The translations under genes were made by a program, and so were the position numbers. Positions 3,305 through 25,089 of a DNA stretch of 25,089 bases are shown here, one piece after another; position 1 is the stretch's first letter, and each line of letters begins with the position of its first letter. The stretch comes from a virus. Where the stretch lies: positions 1 through 25,089 of IMG/VR virus record IMGVR_UViG_3300036846_000368; one strand, written 5' to 3'. The notes under the pieces are model-generated. The model saw nothing but the letters and a program-made list of their open reading frames with translations, made no database searches and was not told the origin of the DNA.

Positions 3305-3640
3305 ATGTCAGACCAAGAGACCGAGACGACCGACTTCACACCTCTCGACGTCGACGAACTCATCGACGCGCTCCACAACGAACGCAGCAGCACGAACCCG
3401 AACATGGACGCGGCAGCCAACGCGAAGTACGAGACGCTCACATGGGTTCTGTCGCTTGTCGAGGACCCCGAAGCCCGCGCTGAAGAAGACCAAGGCGAAG
3501 TAGACGAAGCCCAAGCAGAACGAGACGCACGATTCGAGGAACACGAAACAGGCGTCCCCGCCGGCGAAACGGAAATCCCGCCAGAAGAGTCTGAGCCTGA
3601 CGAAGAACCAGAACCCACCGAAGAACCCTTCTTGTCGTAA
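3305..3640 (+). CDS. Acidic hypothetical protein
   Basis: A 111-residue protein from ATG 3305, chosen over an upstream in-frame GTG (3272) because AAAGGA (3294-3299) sits five bases before it and 3272 lies inside the previous gene. It is very acidic. Residues 1-55 include an Asp/Thr-rich start and a likely helix (VDELIDALHNERSS, then AKYETLTWVLSLV). The remainder is a disordered Glu/Pro-rich tail with repeated EEPEPTEEP-type segments. Such tails occur in phage assembly or DNA-mimic proteins, but I do not recognise a family. The next gene begins at its stop in TAATG. Confidence 0.7.
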   Translation: MSDQETETTDFTPLDVDELIDALHNERSSTNPNMDAAANAKYETLTWVLSLVEDPEARAEEDQGEVDEAQAERDARFEEHETGVPAGETEIPPEESEPDEEPEPTEEPFLS

Positions 3641-3816
3641 TGCCGTTCCGCTCCGAACCTCAGCGACGGTTCATGTGGGCGCAGCATCCCGACATTGCGG
3701 AGAAATGGGCGCACGGCCAGCATTCCACGAAACAAGGCCCACATAAGATGCCACGCTCCAAGAAGCGGTCCTCGAAACGGTCCTCGAAACGGTCGAAACG
3801 ATCGAGCCGTTACTAA
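3640..3816 (+). CDS. Small basic protein with SEPQRRFMWAQHP motif
   Basis: A 58-residue protein linked on both sides by TAATG junctions. Residues 3-24 (FRSEPQRRFMWAQHPDIAEK) follow a pattern I have seen in small phage proteins of the form F-K/R-S-E-x-Q-R-R-F-x-x-A-x-H-P-E-I-A. The last third is a low-complexity basic tail of Ser-Lys-Arg units (SKKRSSKRSSKRSKRSS), encoded by a near-perfect repeated TCGAAACGGTCC sequence. Such a tail should bind nucleic acid or acidic protein, and its neighbour is strongly acidic. The function is unknown; a head-interior or packaging role is inference. Confidence 0.75.
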   Translation: MPFRSEPQRRFMWAQHPDIAEKWAHGQHSTKQGPHKMPRSKKRSSKRSSKRSKRSSRY

Positions 3817-6726: not shown

Positions 6727-8543
6727 TGGCAACTGATACGCTCACGACGATGCTGATGCCGCATCGGGAACCGGACCTGCAAACAGTCAACGACCTGCGC
6801 ACCCTCTACCTTGTCGCCAGAGACGAGAAGCGCAACCGTTACGACAACTGGATGCGGAACTATCGTCTGGTTCACAACCGGATCGGCGGCACCGTCCAGA
6901 ACTGGATGCCAGCCCCACGAGACAGCGAAATCTACCCTGGACTCTCGTCGCTGATCGCGTGGATGACAGACCAAGAAATCGACATAGACCTTATCCCGTC
7001 CGCTGACCCCAACTCGCAACTCTTCGACTACGTATCACACATCGCCGACGACCTGTCCGACGTCCTCTACACGACATGGCAAACCGAATGCTACGACCAG
7101 CAAATCAAACTGGCATTGTGGGATGCGACAATGTACGGGACAGGGATCATCAAGAACATCTGGGACAACTCTCTCAGCGGCGGCTACGGCAACTCGGTCA
7201 TGCGACGCACAGACCCGTGGGCTTTCTACGTGGACCCCAACGCAACATCACTGTCCGACGCCGAATACATGATCGAAGTACGCAAAGTCTCCCGAGACGA
7301 ACTCGAACGACGATTCCCTGACACGTACGACAAGGCAGTCAAAGCAACAGGGACGTCCATCGAAGGCTACGATGAACGCCCGAAAGTGTACGGGTCGATG
7401 GATCGGCGCGTAATGACAAACCCCGGACAAATCCCTTCGTCCGGACAGTGGCCCGGCGGCTCATCCCGCGTCGGAACATTCGGGGGACGCCCACGAGACC
7501 GGCGACTCTACCTGCCCGACCCCGGCTACGTCCTCTACGAATACTGGCTCAAAGTCAACGACGAATACGAAGAAGAATGGCCGGACTTCCCCGACGAAGA
7601 AGACGAGGAATACCCCGAATATGCCGACAACAGAGTCAAACCAACCTGGCGATTCGTTGCCGTCTGTAACGGTCGAGTGCTCTTGGACGTACCTGTGTCC
7701 GAAATGTGGTCACACGGCCAACCGCCGTACGAAGACTTCCGGTTCGACGACATTGGTGAGTTCTACGGGATCGCCCTCGTCGATCACCTGGCACACCCCC
7801 AAATCTACGTCAACCGACTACTCACGGCGCTCCAACACAACGCCGAACTTACGGGTAATCCGATCTTCATTGAACCCGCCAACTCAGGACTGAACCGGGT
7901 CAACATCATCAACCGTCCCGGCCAACGCCTCACAGTGTCGGGTCCACAAGCGATGCAGAACCGTCCCGACTGGCTCACCCCGCCAGCAATGCCGCAGCAA
8001 GTCATGGACTTGGTACAGTTCTGGATCAGCCGCATTGAGAACACCATGTCACTCAGCGCCCTACAGAAAGGCATCACGCCGACACAACGCAACGCCGAAG
8101 GCGCGCTCAACATGGTGCAGGAGGCAGCGTTCGTTCGGGTCCGGTCGGCGCTCTCCAACCTTCAAGACTGCCTCCAACGCTCAGCGATCAAACTAGCAGA
8201 CCTTATCGTCGACAACTACACGCAACCGCGAATCATGGCAATCATCGGCGAAGACGGTAACATGATGGCGAAATCTCTCGCCGGCCAGCATTTCATGGTC
8301 CCATCCCGCAACGGGTCAGCGCCTCTCCAATATGTCATCCGAGTCGAAGCCGGGTCCGGAGGCCCGACGTCCCGAGCCGCTCGCATGGCGGAAGCAGACA
8401 AGCTCTACGGTCTCGGAGCCGTCGACGACCAGTACGTCCTCCAGAAGCACCGGGTCCGCAACGTCAAAGCCGTTCTCGGCCGCCTTTACGAGAAGCGGCA
8501 GAAAGGTCTCATCGGAACGCCAGGCAAACGACAAGGCAAATAG
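6726..8543 (+). CDS. Portal protein
   Basis: A 605-residue portal, the dodecameric ring at one capsid vertex through which DNA enters and leaves. Family features are the N-terminal helical segment (NYRLVHNRIGGTVQNWMPAP), the Asp/Pro signature DPWAFYVDPNATSLSDAEYM, an acidic insertion with repeated Glu/Asp (EYEEEWPDFPDEEDEEYPEY), and the stem/crown helices GIALVDHLAHPQIYVNRLLT and SRIENTMSLSALQKGITPTQ. The basic C-terminus KRQKGLIGTPGKRQGK would face DNA or the capsid. I chose ATG 6726 because it forms a TAATG junction with the fibre gene and AGGGAG lies 11 bases upstream; ATG 6717 is possible but too close to that purine stretch. Confidence 0.9.
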   Translation: MATDTLTTMLMPHREPDLQTVNDLRTLYLVARDEKRNRYDNWMRNYRLVHNRIGGTVQNWMPAPRDSEIYPGLSSLIAWMTDQEIDIDLIPSADPNSQLFDYVSHIADDLSDVLYTTWQTECYDQQIKLALWDATMYGTGIIKNIWDNSLSGGYGNSVMRRTDPWAFYVDPNATSLSDAEYMIEVRKVSRDELERRFPDTYDKAVKATGTSIEGYDERPKVYGSMDRRVMTNPGQIPSSGQWPGGSSRVGTFGGRPRDRRLYLPDPGYVLYEYWLKVNDEYEEEWPDFPDEEDEEYPEYADNRVKPTWRFVAVCNGRVLLDVPVSEMWSHGQPPYEDFRFDDIGEFYGIALVDHLAHPQIYVNRLLTALQHNAELTGNPIFIEPANSGLNRVNIINRPGQRLTVSGPQAMQNRPDWLTPPAMPQQVMDLVQFWISRIENTMSLSALQKGITPTQRNAEGALNMVQEAAFVRVRSALSNLQDCLQRSAIKLADLIVDNYTQPRIMAIIGEDGNMMAKSLAGQHFMVPSRNGSAPLQYVIRVEAGSGGPTSRAARMAEADKLYGLGAVDDQYVLQKHRVRNVKAVLGRLYEKRQKGLIGTPGKRQGK

Positions 8544-16880: not shown

Positions 16881-17597
16881 ATGGGTGCATTCGATTGGGC
16901 CACGACCTTACGTGAAGGTCTTCAATCCGGCGCTGGAAACGTAGCGAAAGGAGGCGCCCAGTTCGCACGACAGAACCCGGTTCCGTCTATTCTGTCGTTA
17001 GGGACCGCTCCGTTCTGGGCAGGCGCAGCTAGAGAAGCGGGAAGTCTCATGCCTAGCGGCGGCGGCGGCGGCGGCGGCGGATCATCTGACCCGTCACAAC
17101 CACAACAGCAGCAGCAGCCCGTTACTCCGCAAACACAATCCGGTCCAACACAATCCGGTCCAACCGGCAACATGACCTTCAACCCGTACGTAAACCCGCT
17201 CGCCATGTCGGCGTTCTTCACGCAATCAATGGCCCCGTATCTCAACTCGATCGCTGACCGTTACCAGCAACAGTCGGGTGCGGCCCAGAATCTTGCTCAA
17301 CAGAACCTTCAACATTTCCAGATGCCCGCTCAGTTCAAGTCGTTCTTCGGTCAGCAACTCCCGCAAATGCAACAGGATCAGGCGGGAGTTATGGCGGCTC
17401 TGCAACAGGCGGCACCCGCCCAAGGCCAATATCAGCAGATGATGGCAGGACTCGGGAACCTACAGAAACAAGCGCAACAAGCGTACGCGACGGAACTGTC
17501 CCGCAAGGCGTACGAGCAGACATACGGGGTGCAGCCGGGAACAGGACCAACCGGAGCCTCAACCGCTAACCCGGCAGCGACAGTAGCGGGCCTCTAA
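16881..17597 (+). CDS. Gln/Ala-rich protein, probable virion-interior protein
   Basis: A 238-residue protein with AGGAG (16870-16874) six bases upstream. Residues 1-55 are an N-terminal part with hydrophobic and Ala/Gly segments (QNPVPSILSLGTAPFWAGAA). A run of eight Gly follows (60-67), then Ser, Pro and Gln linkers (SQPQQQQQPVTP) with a doubled QSGPT unit encoded by two tandem 15-base copies. The C-terminal half is helical and Gln-rich (DRYQQQSGAAQNLAQQNLQH). It resembles the preceding protein in composition and, with it, would form part of the ejection apparatus; this is inference. Confidence 0.55.
   Translation: MGAFDWATTLREGLQSGAGNVAKGGAQFARQNPVPSILSLGTAPFWAGAAREAGSLMPSGGGGGGGGSSDPSQPQQQQQPVTPQTQSGPTQSGPTGNMTFNPYVNPLAMSAFFTQSMAPYLNSIADRYQQQSGAAQNLAQQNLQHFQMPAQFKSFFGQQLPQMQQDQAGVMAALQQAAPAQGQYQQMMAGLGNLQKQAQQAYATELSRKAYEQTYGVQPGTGPTGASTANPAATVAGL
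17058..17081 (+). repeat. GGC trinucleotide run in coding sequence
   Basis: Seven GGC units followed by GGA encode eight consecutive glycines (residues 60-67) of the Gln/Ala-rich protein. The run is in frame. It is a simple-sequence tract that could vary in length without breaking the gene. Confidence 0.8.
17133..17162 (+). repeat. Tandem 15-base repeat (2 units)
   Basis: Two identical units ACACAATCCGGTCCA lie at 17133-17147 and 17148-17162. They encode the doubled QSGPT segment of the virion-interior protein. In-frame duplications of this kind change linker length only. Confidence 0.8.
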
Positions 17598-22629: not shown

Positions 22630-23388
22630 TTAGAACAGCTTCATCTTCTTGCCTCGTTTCGCCGGCCTCCCCACGACCTTCCCTTTCCCGCTCTTCCCCG
22701 TCTTCCACTCCCAATGTTTCTGGCACCATGCGATCCCTTCGTCAGTTATATGTGTCCCCACGCAACTCCCGCACTTCACGCACGGACGATACACGTACGG
22801 TGGAATGGGCGGACGAGTCTCAGAACCACCCTCGACACTCTCATGGAACACGCGTAGATCATCTAACACGTCGATGAGTAACGCTTGATTCCGGAGGACT
22901 GCTGCCGGATGCCATGTTACCAAACCCCATGTATCCACGTCTAATCCACTGATCGGGCATTTCACCCATCTGCCCCTAATCTCCCCAACTCGGTAACCTT
23001 GGACCCAGGCACTCACGGCAACACCGCCAAACAACAGAAGGAAAGACGGCTCGATCAGCCGCAACTGCGCCATCAGATTCCCACGACACGCCTCCACCTC
23101 CAACCCCGTAGGAGTCCGGTTCGGGAAGCACGACACGGCATTCACCCACGCGACGTTCCCGAAACGCGGCTCGATCCAACTTCTCGCCAGTTGACCGCTC
23201 AATCCGACGAAGGGTCGTCCTTGTTCGTCCTCCGTTCGGCCAGGTGCCTCCCCAACGACAGCAACACGAGAAGGTACAGGGCCGTCCCAAGGAACAGGCC
23301 GGGTGCTACGGGTATGCAGATGGCAGCGAACACATCCAATGATCTGCGACCTTACTTGTAGTGCCGTTCGCGGTTGCACGTCCGACAA
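22630..23388 (-). CDS. Family 4 uracil-DNA glycosylase with C-terminal zinc finger
   Basis: A 252-residue enzyme that removes uracil from DNA. It carries the active-site motif VVGEAPGRTEDEQG with PFVG (44-62), the C-terminal WHPAAVLRN (159-167), and four cysteines at 19, 22, 87 and 101 for the [4Fe-4S] cluster typical of family 4. The start is TTG 23388: GGAG lies eight bases upstream, at 23397-23400, and the next alternative is GTG 23379. The body ends near residue 190. A 60-residue extension follows with CVKCGSC and WCQKH (C203, C206, C209, C222, H225), suggesting a zinc finger, then a Lys/Arg/Gly tail (GKSGKGKVVGRPAKRGKKMK). This extension is not part of the core family. Confidence 0.88.
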   Translation of the reverse strand: MSDVQPRTALQVRSQIIGCVRCHLHTRSTRPVPWDGPVPSRVAVVGEAPGRTEDEQGRPFVGLSGQLARSWIEPRFGNVAWVNAVSCFPNRTPTGLEVEACRGNLMAQLRLIEPSFLLLFGGVAVSAWVQGYRVGEIRGRWVKCPISGLDVDTWGLVTWHPAAVLRNQALLIDVLDDLRVFHESVEGGSETRPPIPPYVYRPCVKCGSCVGTHITDEGIAWCQKHWEWKTGKSGKGKVVGRPAKRGKKMKLF

Positions 23389-23678
23389 TAGCGCTTCTCC
23401 TTATGCCAGTAGGTGTTCTCGTCTGTATACTCGTGACCGTGAGAACATCTGGTTACCTTCGGTCTGCGACGAAGGTTCTCGACGGCCGTTACACACTCCA
23501 TGTGGAACGGGTTGTAACAGGACTTCACGCGACACAAATGGTCTATGGTAAGACCGTTAGGGATCGGACCACGAATAGCTTCGTACGCTAGTCGGTGGAC
23601 GGGTCTAGGTCCGAAAGTTCCATAGCCGTCTTGGTCCAATCTTCCGTCGTAGATCCAGCATTGTCTAATGATTCCCAT
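23352..23678 (-). CDS. HNH endonuclease
   Basis: A 108-residue nuclease. The CWIYDGRLDQDGYGTFG N-terminus and VHRLAYEAIRGPIP are typical of small phage HNH proteins. The catalytic region has IDHLCRVKSC (45-54) and NPFHMECVTAVENLRR (56-71), with H47, N56 and H59 as the likely metal and active-site residues. A second zinc motif follows (CSHGH, then CRTC). The first 30 codons overlap the ERCC4-type gene by 91 bases and the last 12 overlap the glycosylase by 37, leaving 199 unique bases. Typical N-terminal residues lie in the overlap, so both overlaps seem genuine. A free-standing homing role or a DNA-cleaving role in packaging are both possible. Confidence 0.85.
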   Translation of the reverse strand: MGIIRQCWIYDGRLDQDGYGTFGPRPVHRLAYEAIRGPIPNGLTIDHLCRVKSCYNPFHMECVTAVENLRRRPKVTRCSHGHEYTDENTYWHKEKRYCRTCNRERHYK

Positions 23679-24310
23679 AGGACTCTGGCTCGTTTCGCTC
23701 CGATCCCTCGGACTTCCATAAGATCAGACAATCCCACCGTCCACATTGCTGGCACTGTACGATCAAAGTGCTCGTAGATTGCCCGTGCCTGAACAGGTCC
23801 GATACCACGGAAGCCTTGCAACAAGTGGATAGCCCACTGTTCGTTTCCACTCTTCCCCCATTCGTCAGATGTGGGTCCTGGCCTGCTCTCCAACGCGATG
23901 TGCCGCGGTTTGGCCGTCCACCGCGTAAACGCGGATATCAAAGTGGAGGTTTCCTGGGCCGTAGTCGAAGTAATGACCCAACAGCCGCTCAACTGTATCG
24001 ACCACAAAGTCCCTAGATGCTGCGTCACCGACCATCGTGTACGCGTCCACGTCGCTAAGCCATCGTTCGTCCAAGATGCTCTCCCTTCAAGTACGAGAAG
24101 CGACAACCCGAGCCGCTTCATCATCCCAAGCTCCTTCGCTAACCTCCCATCCTGAACCGACGCAACGAAATCCGACAGTTCCTTTCGTTGGACACCAACC
24201 AAACCAAACTCGGTAGACGTGAACAGGAAATCCGCACCATACTGTTCAGGCACCAACGACGACTTACCCAACGCTCGTAACAACGGCGGCTCAGTCGGCG
24301 ACACCAGCAT
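23588..24310 (-). CDS. ERCC4-type nuclease with two helix-hairpin-helix motifs
   Basis: A 240-residue structure-specific nuclease of XPF/MUS81 type. The ERCC4 core includes D27 (YGADFLFT), GVQRKELSDFVASVQDGRLA (39-58) and LSLLVLEGR (69-77). The usual catalytic ERK reads QRK here, with Q41 where Glu is expected; R42, K43 and D47 are retained. The C-terminus has two HhH motifs, LLQGFRGIGPVQARAIYEHF (163-182 region) and DLMEVRGIGAKRARVLWESL (196-215 region), for DNA binding. The start (ATG 24310) overlaps the preceding 43-residue ORF by 20 bases, and the last 25 residues overlap the HNH gene. It likely cuts flaps or branched DNA. Whether the Gln form is active is unknown. Confidence 0.85.
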   Translation of the reverse strand: MLVSPTEPPLLRALGKSSLVPEQYGADFLFTSTEFGLVGVQRKELSDFVASVQDGRLAKELGMMKRLGLSLLVLEGRASWTNDGLATWTRTRWSVTQHLGTLWSIQLSGCWVITSTTAQETSTLISAFTRWTAKPRHIALESRPGPTSDEWGKSGNEQWAIHLLQGFRGIGPVQARAIYEHFDRTVPAMWTVGLSDLMEVRGIGAKRARVLWESLDNAGSTTEDWTKTAMELSDLDPSTD

Positions 24311-24422
24311 CGTCGTCGCTCTCTGCCGGTGCTGTCACGGGAGGTTCCAGCCACCTCGGGCACCAGTAAGCATGGAAGCGTCCAGCTTCACGCCCACACA
24401 GACGGCAGCGGTGAACGGTCAT
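24291..24422 (-). CDS. Small zinc-ribbon-like protein (43 aa)
   Basis: A 43-residue protein starting at ATG 24422 in an ATGA overlap with the previous stop. It begins MTVHRCRLCGREAGRFHAYW and then has CPRW. The C6-x2-C9 pair, H17 and C21 could bind one zinc, forming a small knuckle. After PPVT the tail is APAESDDD and GVAD, which comes from a repeat copy at 24308-24338. The ERCC4-type start lies 20 bases inside this gene. No family recognised. Its coupling to the nuclease suggests it may act with it, which is inference. Confidence 0.65.
   Translation of the reverse strand: MTVHRCRLCGREAGRFHAYWCPRWLEPPVTAPAESDDDAGVAD
24308..24338 (-). repeat. Gene-junction repeat, copy R4
   Basis: Copy at the ERCC4-type start. 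Read on the minus strand it ends at the ATG of that gene. It matches R1 over its full length apart from one substitution and one missing base. It encodes VTAPAESDDD in the upstream 43-residue gene. AGAGAG about eight bases before the ATG could serve as a Shine-Dalgarno. Confidence 0.85.
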
Positions 24423-24541
24423 TTGTTGTCGCTCTCTGCCGCTTCGATAACGCCCGCGAGGTTGTCGAGTGCCGCGATCAGTCGCGGCAACGTCTCGTCA
24501 ATCAGGCCAGTGAGGGCATCCACCGAATCTTCGAGGCTCAT
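24419..24541 (-). CDS. Small helical protein (40 aa)
   Basis: A 40-residue protein from ATG 24541, which forms an ATGA overlap with the preceding gene; a longer reading from 24652 is only that gene's shadow in another frame. The sequence is an amphipathic helix throughout (SLEDSVDALTGLIDETLPRL, then IAALDNLAGVIEAA) with the acidic tail ESDNK. The tail and the ATG of the next gene come from repeat copy R3. No family is recognised. It could oligomerise as a coiled coil. Confidence 0.65.
   Translation of the reverse strand: MSLEDSVDALTGLIDETLPRLIAALDNLAGVIEAAESDNK
24420..24441 (-). repeat. Gene-junction repeat, copy R3
   Basis: The most diverged copy. It keeps the central GGCAGAGAGCGAC and the ATG at its 3' end, with GAC and GAA codons changed to AAC and AAA. 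It encodes AAESDNK at the end of the 40-residue protein and then the ATG of the 43-residue protein. Confidence 0.8.
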
Positions 24542-24759
24542 TCGTCGTCGCTCTCTGCCGGTGGCGCCTCGTGGCATGGGAAGGTGCGGACGCGGATCGG
24601 CACCATGACGACTTCTTCCATCTCGGTCGCTTCGTCGCCGTCCCCGTCGCACTCGAAGTGGTCAGCGAGCCACGAGTACTCGCCGTAGATCAGGTCGCCG
24701 TCCGTGCGCCGGAACGCGGTGAACGCTCCCGGCATCCGGCGTGCTTCTTCAGGGGTCAT
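24538..24759 (-). CDS. Hypothetical acidic protein (73 aa)
   Basis: A 73-residue protein from ATG 24759. It opens MTPEEARRMPGAFTAFRRTD, continues with IYGEYSWLADHFECDGDGDE and a strand-forming VVMVPIRVRTFPCHE, and ends APPAESDDE. Two cysteines (37 and 62) do not form an obvious motif. It resembles small uncharacterised proteins of phage early regions in composition, but I cannot name a family. The first start is inside repeat copy R1 and its last codons are repeat copy R2; it overlaps the next gene by four bases. Confidence 0.65.
   Translation of the reverse strand: MTPEEARRMPGAFTAFRRTDGDLIYGEYSWLADHFECDGDGDEATEMEEVVMVPIRVRTFPCHEAPPAESDDE
24539..24563 (-). repeat. Gene-junction repeat, copy R2
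   Basis: Identical to R1 over 25 bases, from CACCGG to the start codon; the A that follows also matches. It encodes PAESDDE at the end of the 73-residue protein and the ATG of the 40-residue protein in an ATGA overlap. Confidence 0.85.
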
Positions 24760-24788
24760 TCGTCGTCGCTCTCTGCCGGTGATGTCAC
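24756..24788 (-). CDS. Ten-codon ORF bridging two genes
   Basis: GTG 24788 begins an ORF of ten codons, MTSPAESDDE, ending in TGA at 24756. Its start shares GTGA with the stop of the recombinase-like gene upstream, and its stop shares ATGA with the start of the 73-residue gene. It consists entirely of repeat copy R1. Either it is translated as a relay between the two genes, or it is the remnant of a larger gene whose tail was the same repeat. Ten codons is too short to prove coding by itself. Confidence 0.3.
   Translation of the reverse strand: MTSPAESDDE
24757..24788 (-). repeat. Gene-junction repeat, copy R1
   Basis: A 32-base copy ending at the ATG of the 73-residue gene. It matches R4 except for one substitution and one base, and matches R2 exactly over 25 bases. 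The central AGAGAG lies nine bases before the ATG, at Shine-Dalgarno distance. Confidence 0.85.
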
Positions 24789-25089
24789 AGTTTCCATCCC
24801 GCTACCCCAATCAGATATGCCGCCACGAAATCCGGTGCCACAACTTTCCCTTTCACCGGCTTCCGACCGTCACCCGAGAACGGCTTCCTCTCTTTTAGCG
24901 TGGTCATCCGATACCCGGACGGCGACTCGACCAAGAACATCTCCGTATGAAACAGATGCGCTAGTTTCTTCTCACCCGACGGCTTCATCCCGACCGTCTG
25001 ATACTTGGCGAACACGTCAGCGTCGTCGCCGAACTGGCCCTTCTTCTCCCGTGTCTGCTCTGCGGCGACCACACACAACACGTGCCCAC
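24785..25089 (-). CDS. Probable Sak4/RecA-like recombinase, C-terminal part (partial)
   Basis: The reading frame is open to the window edge, so the true start lies outside; the 101 visible codons are the C-terminal part. The sequence begins as a strand with VLCVVAAEQTREKKG, then has VGMKPSGEKKLAHLFHTEMF and GYRMTTLKERKPFSG, and ends FVAAYLIGVAGWKL. The strand plus Lys/Arg-rich late motifs resemble the end of phage Sak4-type RecA-like ATPases, whose Walker A motif would be upstream of the window. Neighbouring ERCC4, HNH and glycosylase genes suit a recombination role. The call is from a fragment and could be another ATPase. Confidence 0.5.
   Translation of the reverse strand, partial: GHVLCVVAAEQTREKKGQFGDDADVFAKYQTVGMKPSGEKKLAHLFHTEMFLVESPSGYRMTTLKERKPFSGDGRKPVKGKVVAPDFVAAYLIGVAGWKL

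Follow-up and report, generated by a model that had tools for sequence, protein, structure and literature searches.

How can small genes enter, leave or be exchanged in phage operons that nevertheless stay intact? This is an open question, and at most module borders no homology is visible. Here we consider a virus record of 25,089 bases, analysed as a whole (the window), in which the sequence GGCAGAGAGCGAC is present in four exact copies, each at one of four successive minus-strand gene starts. A four-copy array with partly shared flanks, located beside a recombinase gene and holding variable cargo, should be a favourable site for observing how this happens.

The array lies at the right end of the record within a recombination/repair operon on the minus strand. 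In it, three small genes separate the end of the gene for a Sak4-like ATPase (AAA_24) from an ERCC4-type nuclease, which is followed by an HNH endonuclease, a uracil-DNA glycosylase and an adenine methylase; the gene calls are mechanical. The ATPase gene (24785..25087, minus) is cut by the contig end, and its remaining 3' part is 68% and 65% identical to the homologues in the relatives L008 and L007, respectively. The Sak4 assignment comes from the full-length proteins of these relatives, which match the Sak4-like family phrog_124 (E 5e-9 for L008 and 7e-5 for L007), and their AAA_24 matches fall below the Pfam cut-off. The nuclease, which carries a helix-hairpin-helix (23588..24310, minus; Pfam ERCC4, E 7.5e-9), is the fixed downstream neighbour of the small genes, with homologues 42-71% identical in L007, L008, L009, L014 and L020. 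The gene of the uracil-DNA glycosylase superfamily occupies 22630..23388 on the minus strand (Pfam UDG, E 1.5e-20). Elsewhere in the window, an 18-nt exact repeat with copy starts 15 nt apart is present at 17132-17164, inside the ORF 16881-17597.

Two of the small genes, B (73 aa; 24538..24759, minus; C-terminus PPAESDDE) and C (40 aa; 24419..24541, minus; C-terminus AAESDNK), have positive codon scores, and no relative of either was found. Gene D (43 aa; 24291..24422, minus) contains a CxxC motif; its codon score is not positive and its coding status is less certain. The codon scores are weak evidence, because the conserved nuclease is also unmarked by them. In addition, a stub ORF of 13 codons, METVTSPAESDDE (24756..24797, minus), starts inside the ATPase gene and ends in the first copy of the repeat, R1.

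The exact cores are found on the minus strand at 24777-24765 (R1), 24559-24547 (R2), 24440-24428 (R3) and 24327-24315 (R4), with the next ATG at 24759, 24541, 24422 and 24310, respectively, so that 5 nt separate the core end from the ATG in R1-R3 and 4 nt in R4. The whole record has no other exact copy; it is a genome fragment, and further copies could be present in the rest of the genome. With up to two mismatches allowed, the core is matched 6 times in the window versus 0.94 ± 0.86 times in shuffled sequences, and 0 of 100 shuffles reach 6. The two matches other than R1-R4 have 2 mismatches each and are located away from the array. The identity extends beyond the core: R1 and R2 match exactly over at most 26 nt (CACCGGCAGAGAGCGACGACGAATGA), R4 matches either of them over 22 nt, and for R3 the longest match to each of the other copies is 14 nt. 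As complete elements, R1 (24756..24781) precedes gene B, R2 (24538..24563) gene C and R3 (24419..24441) gene D, while R4 with its left flank (24308..24352) resembles the ATPase 3' end followed by R1; all are on the minus strand. The copies are confined to 0.5 kb, and none stands before the glycosylase, HNH or methylase starts in the window. Given the exact cores, the shuffle test and the window-wide uniqueness, the four-copy repeat at successive minus-strand starts, first described in a sequence-only reading of this DNA, is real.

Every copy also closes an upstream reading frame. Protein tails had been claimed for R2, R3 and R4, and all three do end frames; R1, whose 13-codon stub was overlooked, does so as well, and the tails read (P/A)AESD(D/N) in all four cases. 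R1, R2 and R3 terminate in the 4-nt stop/start overlap ATGA. In R4 one A is lost before the ATG and there is no ATGA; the upstream frame continues, ending in DDDAGVAD after a 20-nt overlap with the nuclease gene. R3 has two changes after the core, both of which alter residues (D to N and E to K). The tail of gene D, LEPPVTAPAESDDD, aligns in frame with the R1 stub. With spacing and ATGA overlap constant across R1-R3, an identical frame and shared tails arise automatically in these three copies, and the shared tail is therefore not independent evidence for a protein function.

The AGAGAG inside the repeat had been proposed as a Shine-Dalgarno sequence, and this proposal gains moderate support. 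The predicted pairing with the anti-Shine-Dalgarno is moderate and comparable with that of neighbouring starts (-6.3 kcal/mol in all four copies versus -5.4 to -8.2 at other starts of the operon), calculated for an actinobacterial-type sequence, which assumes the host type and may not be the phage's. A promoter or RNA-structure role of the repeats was considered and rejected: no sigma-70-like promoter or terminator was found near them, shuffled sequences fold as well as the four junctions do, and there was no match in Rfam.

The similarity of the copies includes their flanks. At R4 the left flank of R1, which includes the 3' end of the ATPase gene, is found again (GGATGGAAACT against GGCTGGAACCT) in a short and gapped match with an anchored score of 26, and 0 of 3000 random segments are as good. 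The two sequences stay in the same reading frame (METVTSPAESDD / LEPPVTAPAESDD) and differ in length by three bases at one place, and the METV that opens the stub is in part a consequence of the GWKL codons of the ATPase. The right flank of R1, past the ATG, recurs at R2 with a score of 31, compared with 21 for the best of 1000 random segments. Judged from sequence, the R1/R4 match is what copying of the junction at the ATPase end would leave.

Relatives were found via the nuclease (L007, L008, L009 and L014) and via the methylase (L020), with a protein identity of only about 70% for the closest homologues. In the interval from ATPase to nuclease, L007 has one gene of 82 aa, L008 has ORFs of 57, 78, 109 and 23 aa, L009 of 78, 231 and 120 aa, and L020 of 59, 53 and 228 aa. 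L014 is the sole relative without cargo: its ATPase and nuclease genes overlap (7998-8065). The operon of L007 also encodes a RecE-like protein. The small proteins of the window, L007, L008 and L009 have no recognisable relative among the other phages, whereas the backbone proteins do match. All of the window's small genes are absent from the relatives, which also lack its repeat. These comparisons support the view of the ATPase-nuclease interval as a slot of variable content: its small genes are different in each of the relatives examined. The start of the stub corresponds to the codon position inside the ATPase gene where four relatives begin an ORF of 57-82 aa (82, 57, 78 and 59 aa in L007, L008, L009 and L020). 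In the window the first gene of the slot is thus cut to 13 codons exactly at a copy, as is expected if the gene content changes at copy edges.

Two relatives carry start-junction repeats of their own. In L008/L012, a 20-nt repeat, GGTGGTCRCATGATGCTCAA, is present with 95% identity at two successive stop/start junctions of the same slot (L012, 1544-1563 and 1870-1889). In L007/L011, a 22-nt repeat, GAACGGAGYAGCCCSCAATGAG, stands at three successive starts between the nuclease and the glycosylase (L011, 9226-9675); its sequence is unrelated to that of the window repeat and was not found in other viral contigs. The upstream tails at the L011 copies are LNGVAPNE, PNGAARNEP and VERSSPQ. Because they are read in two frames, it is the DNA, not a protein tail, that these copies have in common. 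Hence the layout recurs in two relatives and the sequence does not, which suggests a recurring process rather than one special sequence. Downstream of the glycosylase gene, L012 also has a tandem array of an 18-bp unit, GGTACTGGTGACTTGTAC (3573-3662).

A survey of 85 loci, in which same-strand start pairs within 6 kb were compared, gave 27 within-locus start-junction pairs scoring at least 16 versus 5.3 expected from between-locus pairs; this is a rough rate, as the ORFs are mechanical and some overlapping or paralogous loci are included, and duplicated genes may account for part of the remaining pairs. The window copies form the strongest set of within-locus start repeats in the survey, and among the top pairs only L011 also has an array with three or more copies. 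Start-junction arrays are uncommon, yet the window's is not the only one. In a distant phage contig, L086, two start junctions (8932 and 9989) share TTTCGAGGMATCCTAGC, a possible start-junction repeat.

The start-linked repeat pattern was found neither in viral contigs nor in bacterial and archaeal genomes. Two exact-pattern matches in IMG/VR (L001 and L002) lie inside long unrelated genes and were judged to be chance. Among cultured phages there was no DNA match, no match for the nuclease and none for genes B and D, and the repeat itself gave partial, chance-level matches only. By these searches, the repeat sequence is private to this phage among the viral contigs, bacterial and archaeal genomes and phages covered. 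No close relative with a different gene set between copies of the same repeat was found, and no gain or loss event was caught. The sequence-only reading had interpreted the repeat as a junction cassette for the swapping of small genes. This idea survives in part: the copies are junction segments in a variable slot, the flanks of R1 recur at R4 and R2, and the stub ends exactly at a copy. The notion of a reusable cassette is not supported, since at starts the same repeat was absent from all other phages, viral contigs and bacterial genomes searched.

We suggest that the four copies are probably duplicates of one gene junction, which was copied by recombination in this lineage and left as a trace of the gain and loss of small genes. 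Each copy would consist of the final codons of an upstream frame, a weak ribosome site rich in purines and the start codon that follows, usually with the ATGA overlap. The likely founder is R1, the junction after the Sak4-like ATPase. Recombination would copy this junction within the lineage while the ATPase-nuclease slot acquires and loses small genes. A gene placed behind any copy would at once be in a working, translationally linked position, and the short direct repeats may ease further gain and loss. The copies would persist because each of them supplies a stop, a ribosome site and a start to whatever lies behind it. We infer the order of these events, the recombination pathway and the use of the copies as ribosome sites, whereas the repeats with their positions, frames, shared flanks, unrelated cargo and private counterparts in two relatives are seen directly in the DNA.

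The main rival of this reading is a start-associated regulatory sequence, a phage-specific element similar to the SAS of mycobacteriophages, which would recruit ribosomes or a regulator to chosen genes. The position just upstream of the ATG, the single orientation and the invariant 13-nt core are in line with it, as are the predicted pairing of AGAGAG with the rRNA end and the fact that every SAS-bearing phage group has its own sequence. R3, in which the central 13 nt are kept while the flanks differ, is a point against duplication and could equally mean selection on the sequence. However, the copies are gathered in a single stretch of the operon instead of being spread across many operons, and the glycosylase, HNH and methylase starts have none. 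They all lie inside upstream frames, whereas 0 of 15 SAS sites of Adephagia are fully inside an annotated upstream gene, and the flanks are duplicated along with the core. We therefore regard such an element as unlikely, although it is the first alternative to be considered.

Rather less probable is a plain recent tandem duplication followed by drift, with no role in translation or gene exchange. It would account for the very high identity, the presence in one phage only and the chain of flanks from R4 through R1 to R2; yet in three related phages the copies stand exactly on starts, with unrelated sequences and different cargo, and random duplication would not target starts. We can also imagine that each lineage in this phage group makes its own junction cassette, a start junction being amplified by the Sak4-like system for the in-frame capture of small genes behind a ready-made ribosome site, and that turnover is too fast for the cassettes to be shared; this is a speculation to which we give a small chance. 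Selection on the protein tail, with PAESDD(E/D) as a functional C-terminal tag of several small proteins, is very improbable. All four upstream frames do end in this type of tail, but R3 alters two of its residues, R4 lengthens it, and at R1 it belongs to an ORF of 13 codons. Furthermore, the equivalent repeat of L011 is read in two frames, and the common frame of R1-R3 is forced by their spacing.

The duplicated-junction reading places the array next to several known systems, and the earlier statement that no named element of this form is known is wrong in substance: the lambda nin chain, boundary sequences, SAS and the Island3 genes gp67/gp68 are precedents. Short conserved boundary sequences, as cited in PMC3029335, provide homology at gene boundaries that was proposed to guide module exchange. 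Under this model both partners of an exchange must have the sequence, whereas the window repeat is found in one phage only.

SAS are 13-nt start repeats described by Pope and colleagues in cluster K mycobacteriophages, mostly in gaps of over 50 bp (PMC3203893). SAS/ESAS are known from these phages and from cluster EF Microbacterium phages, in 11-19 copies dispersed over the non-structural genes or the right half of the genome (PMC3203893, PMC7302621). The window array resembles them in having a conserved 13-nt repeat just upstream of the ATG, in one orientation, with ribosome-site-like bases and specific to a phage group. Unlike SAS, which are many, dispersed and mostly in large intergenic gaps, its copies are four, clustered and inside upstream frames, with duplicated flanks. 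The core GGCAGAGAGCGAC does not match the SAS consensus GGGATAGGAGCCC, which itself also differs between phage clusters.

In Island3, an inserted small gene copies the C-terminal codons of the upstream gene, namely the last 18 residues (PMC3029335); in our recheck 16 of these 18 residues are identical between gp67 and gp68. Its authors infer recombination between repeats of about 50 bp, fundamentally like the short boundary-sequence model (PMC3029335). Similarly, in the window the DNA that encodes the tail of an upstream gene recurs where an adjacent small gene ends, with four shorter copies in place of two long ones. Island3 has a near-identical sister phage without the gene, Brujita, whereas the window phage has no such sister.

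In the nin region of lambda, ATGA overlaps link the genes into a chain (Kroger and Hobom 1982, as cited in PMC8022706), and lambdoid phages differ in the genes that they have there. NinB, NinC, NinG and NinI end in DRAA, REAA, SEAA and GEGA just before the ATGA. As there, the small genes of the window are chained by ATGA, with tail, ribosome site and next start in one stretch; this applies to R1, R2 and R3, whereas R4 has its longer overlap instead. Unlike the window, where 14-26 nt are identical, lambda nin has no exact repeats of at least 14 nt, and its junctions are similar but not identical. Hence the window array, which combines features of SAS, of the Island3 tail duplication and of the lambda nin chain, is a clear additional example of the kind of gene-junction repeats known from other phages rather than a new type of element.
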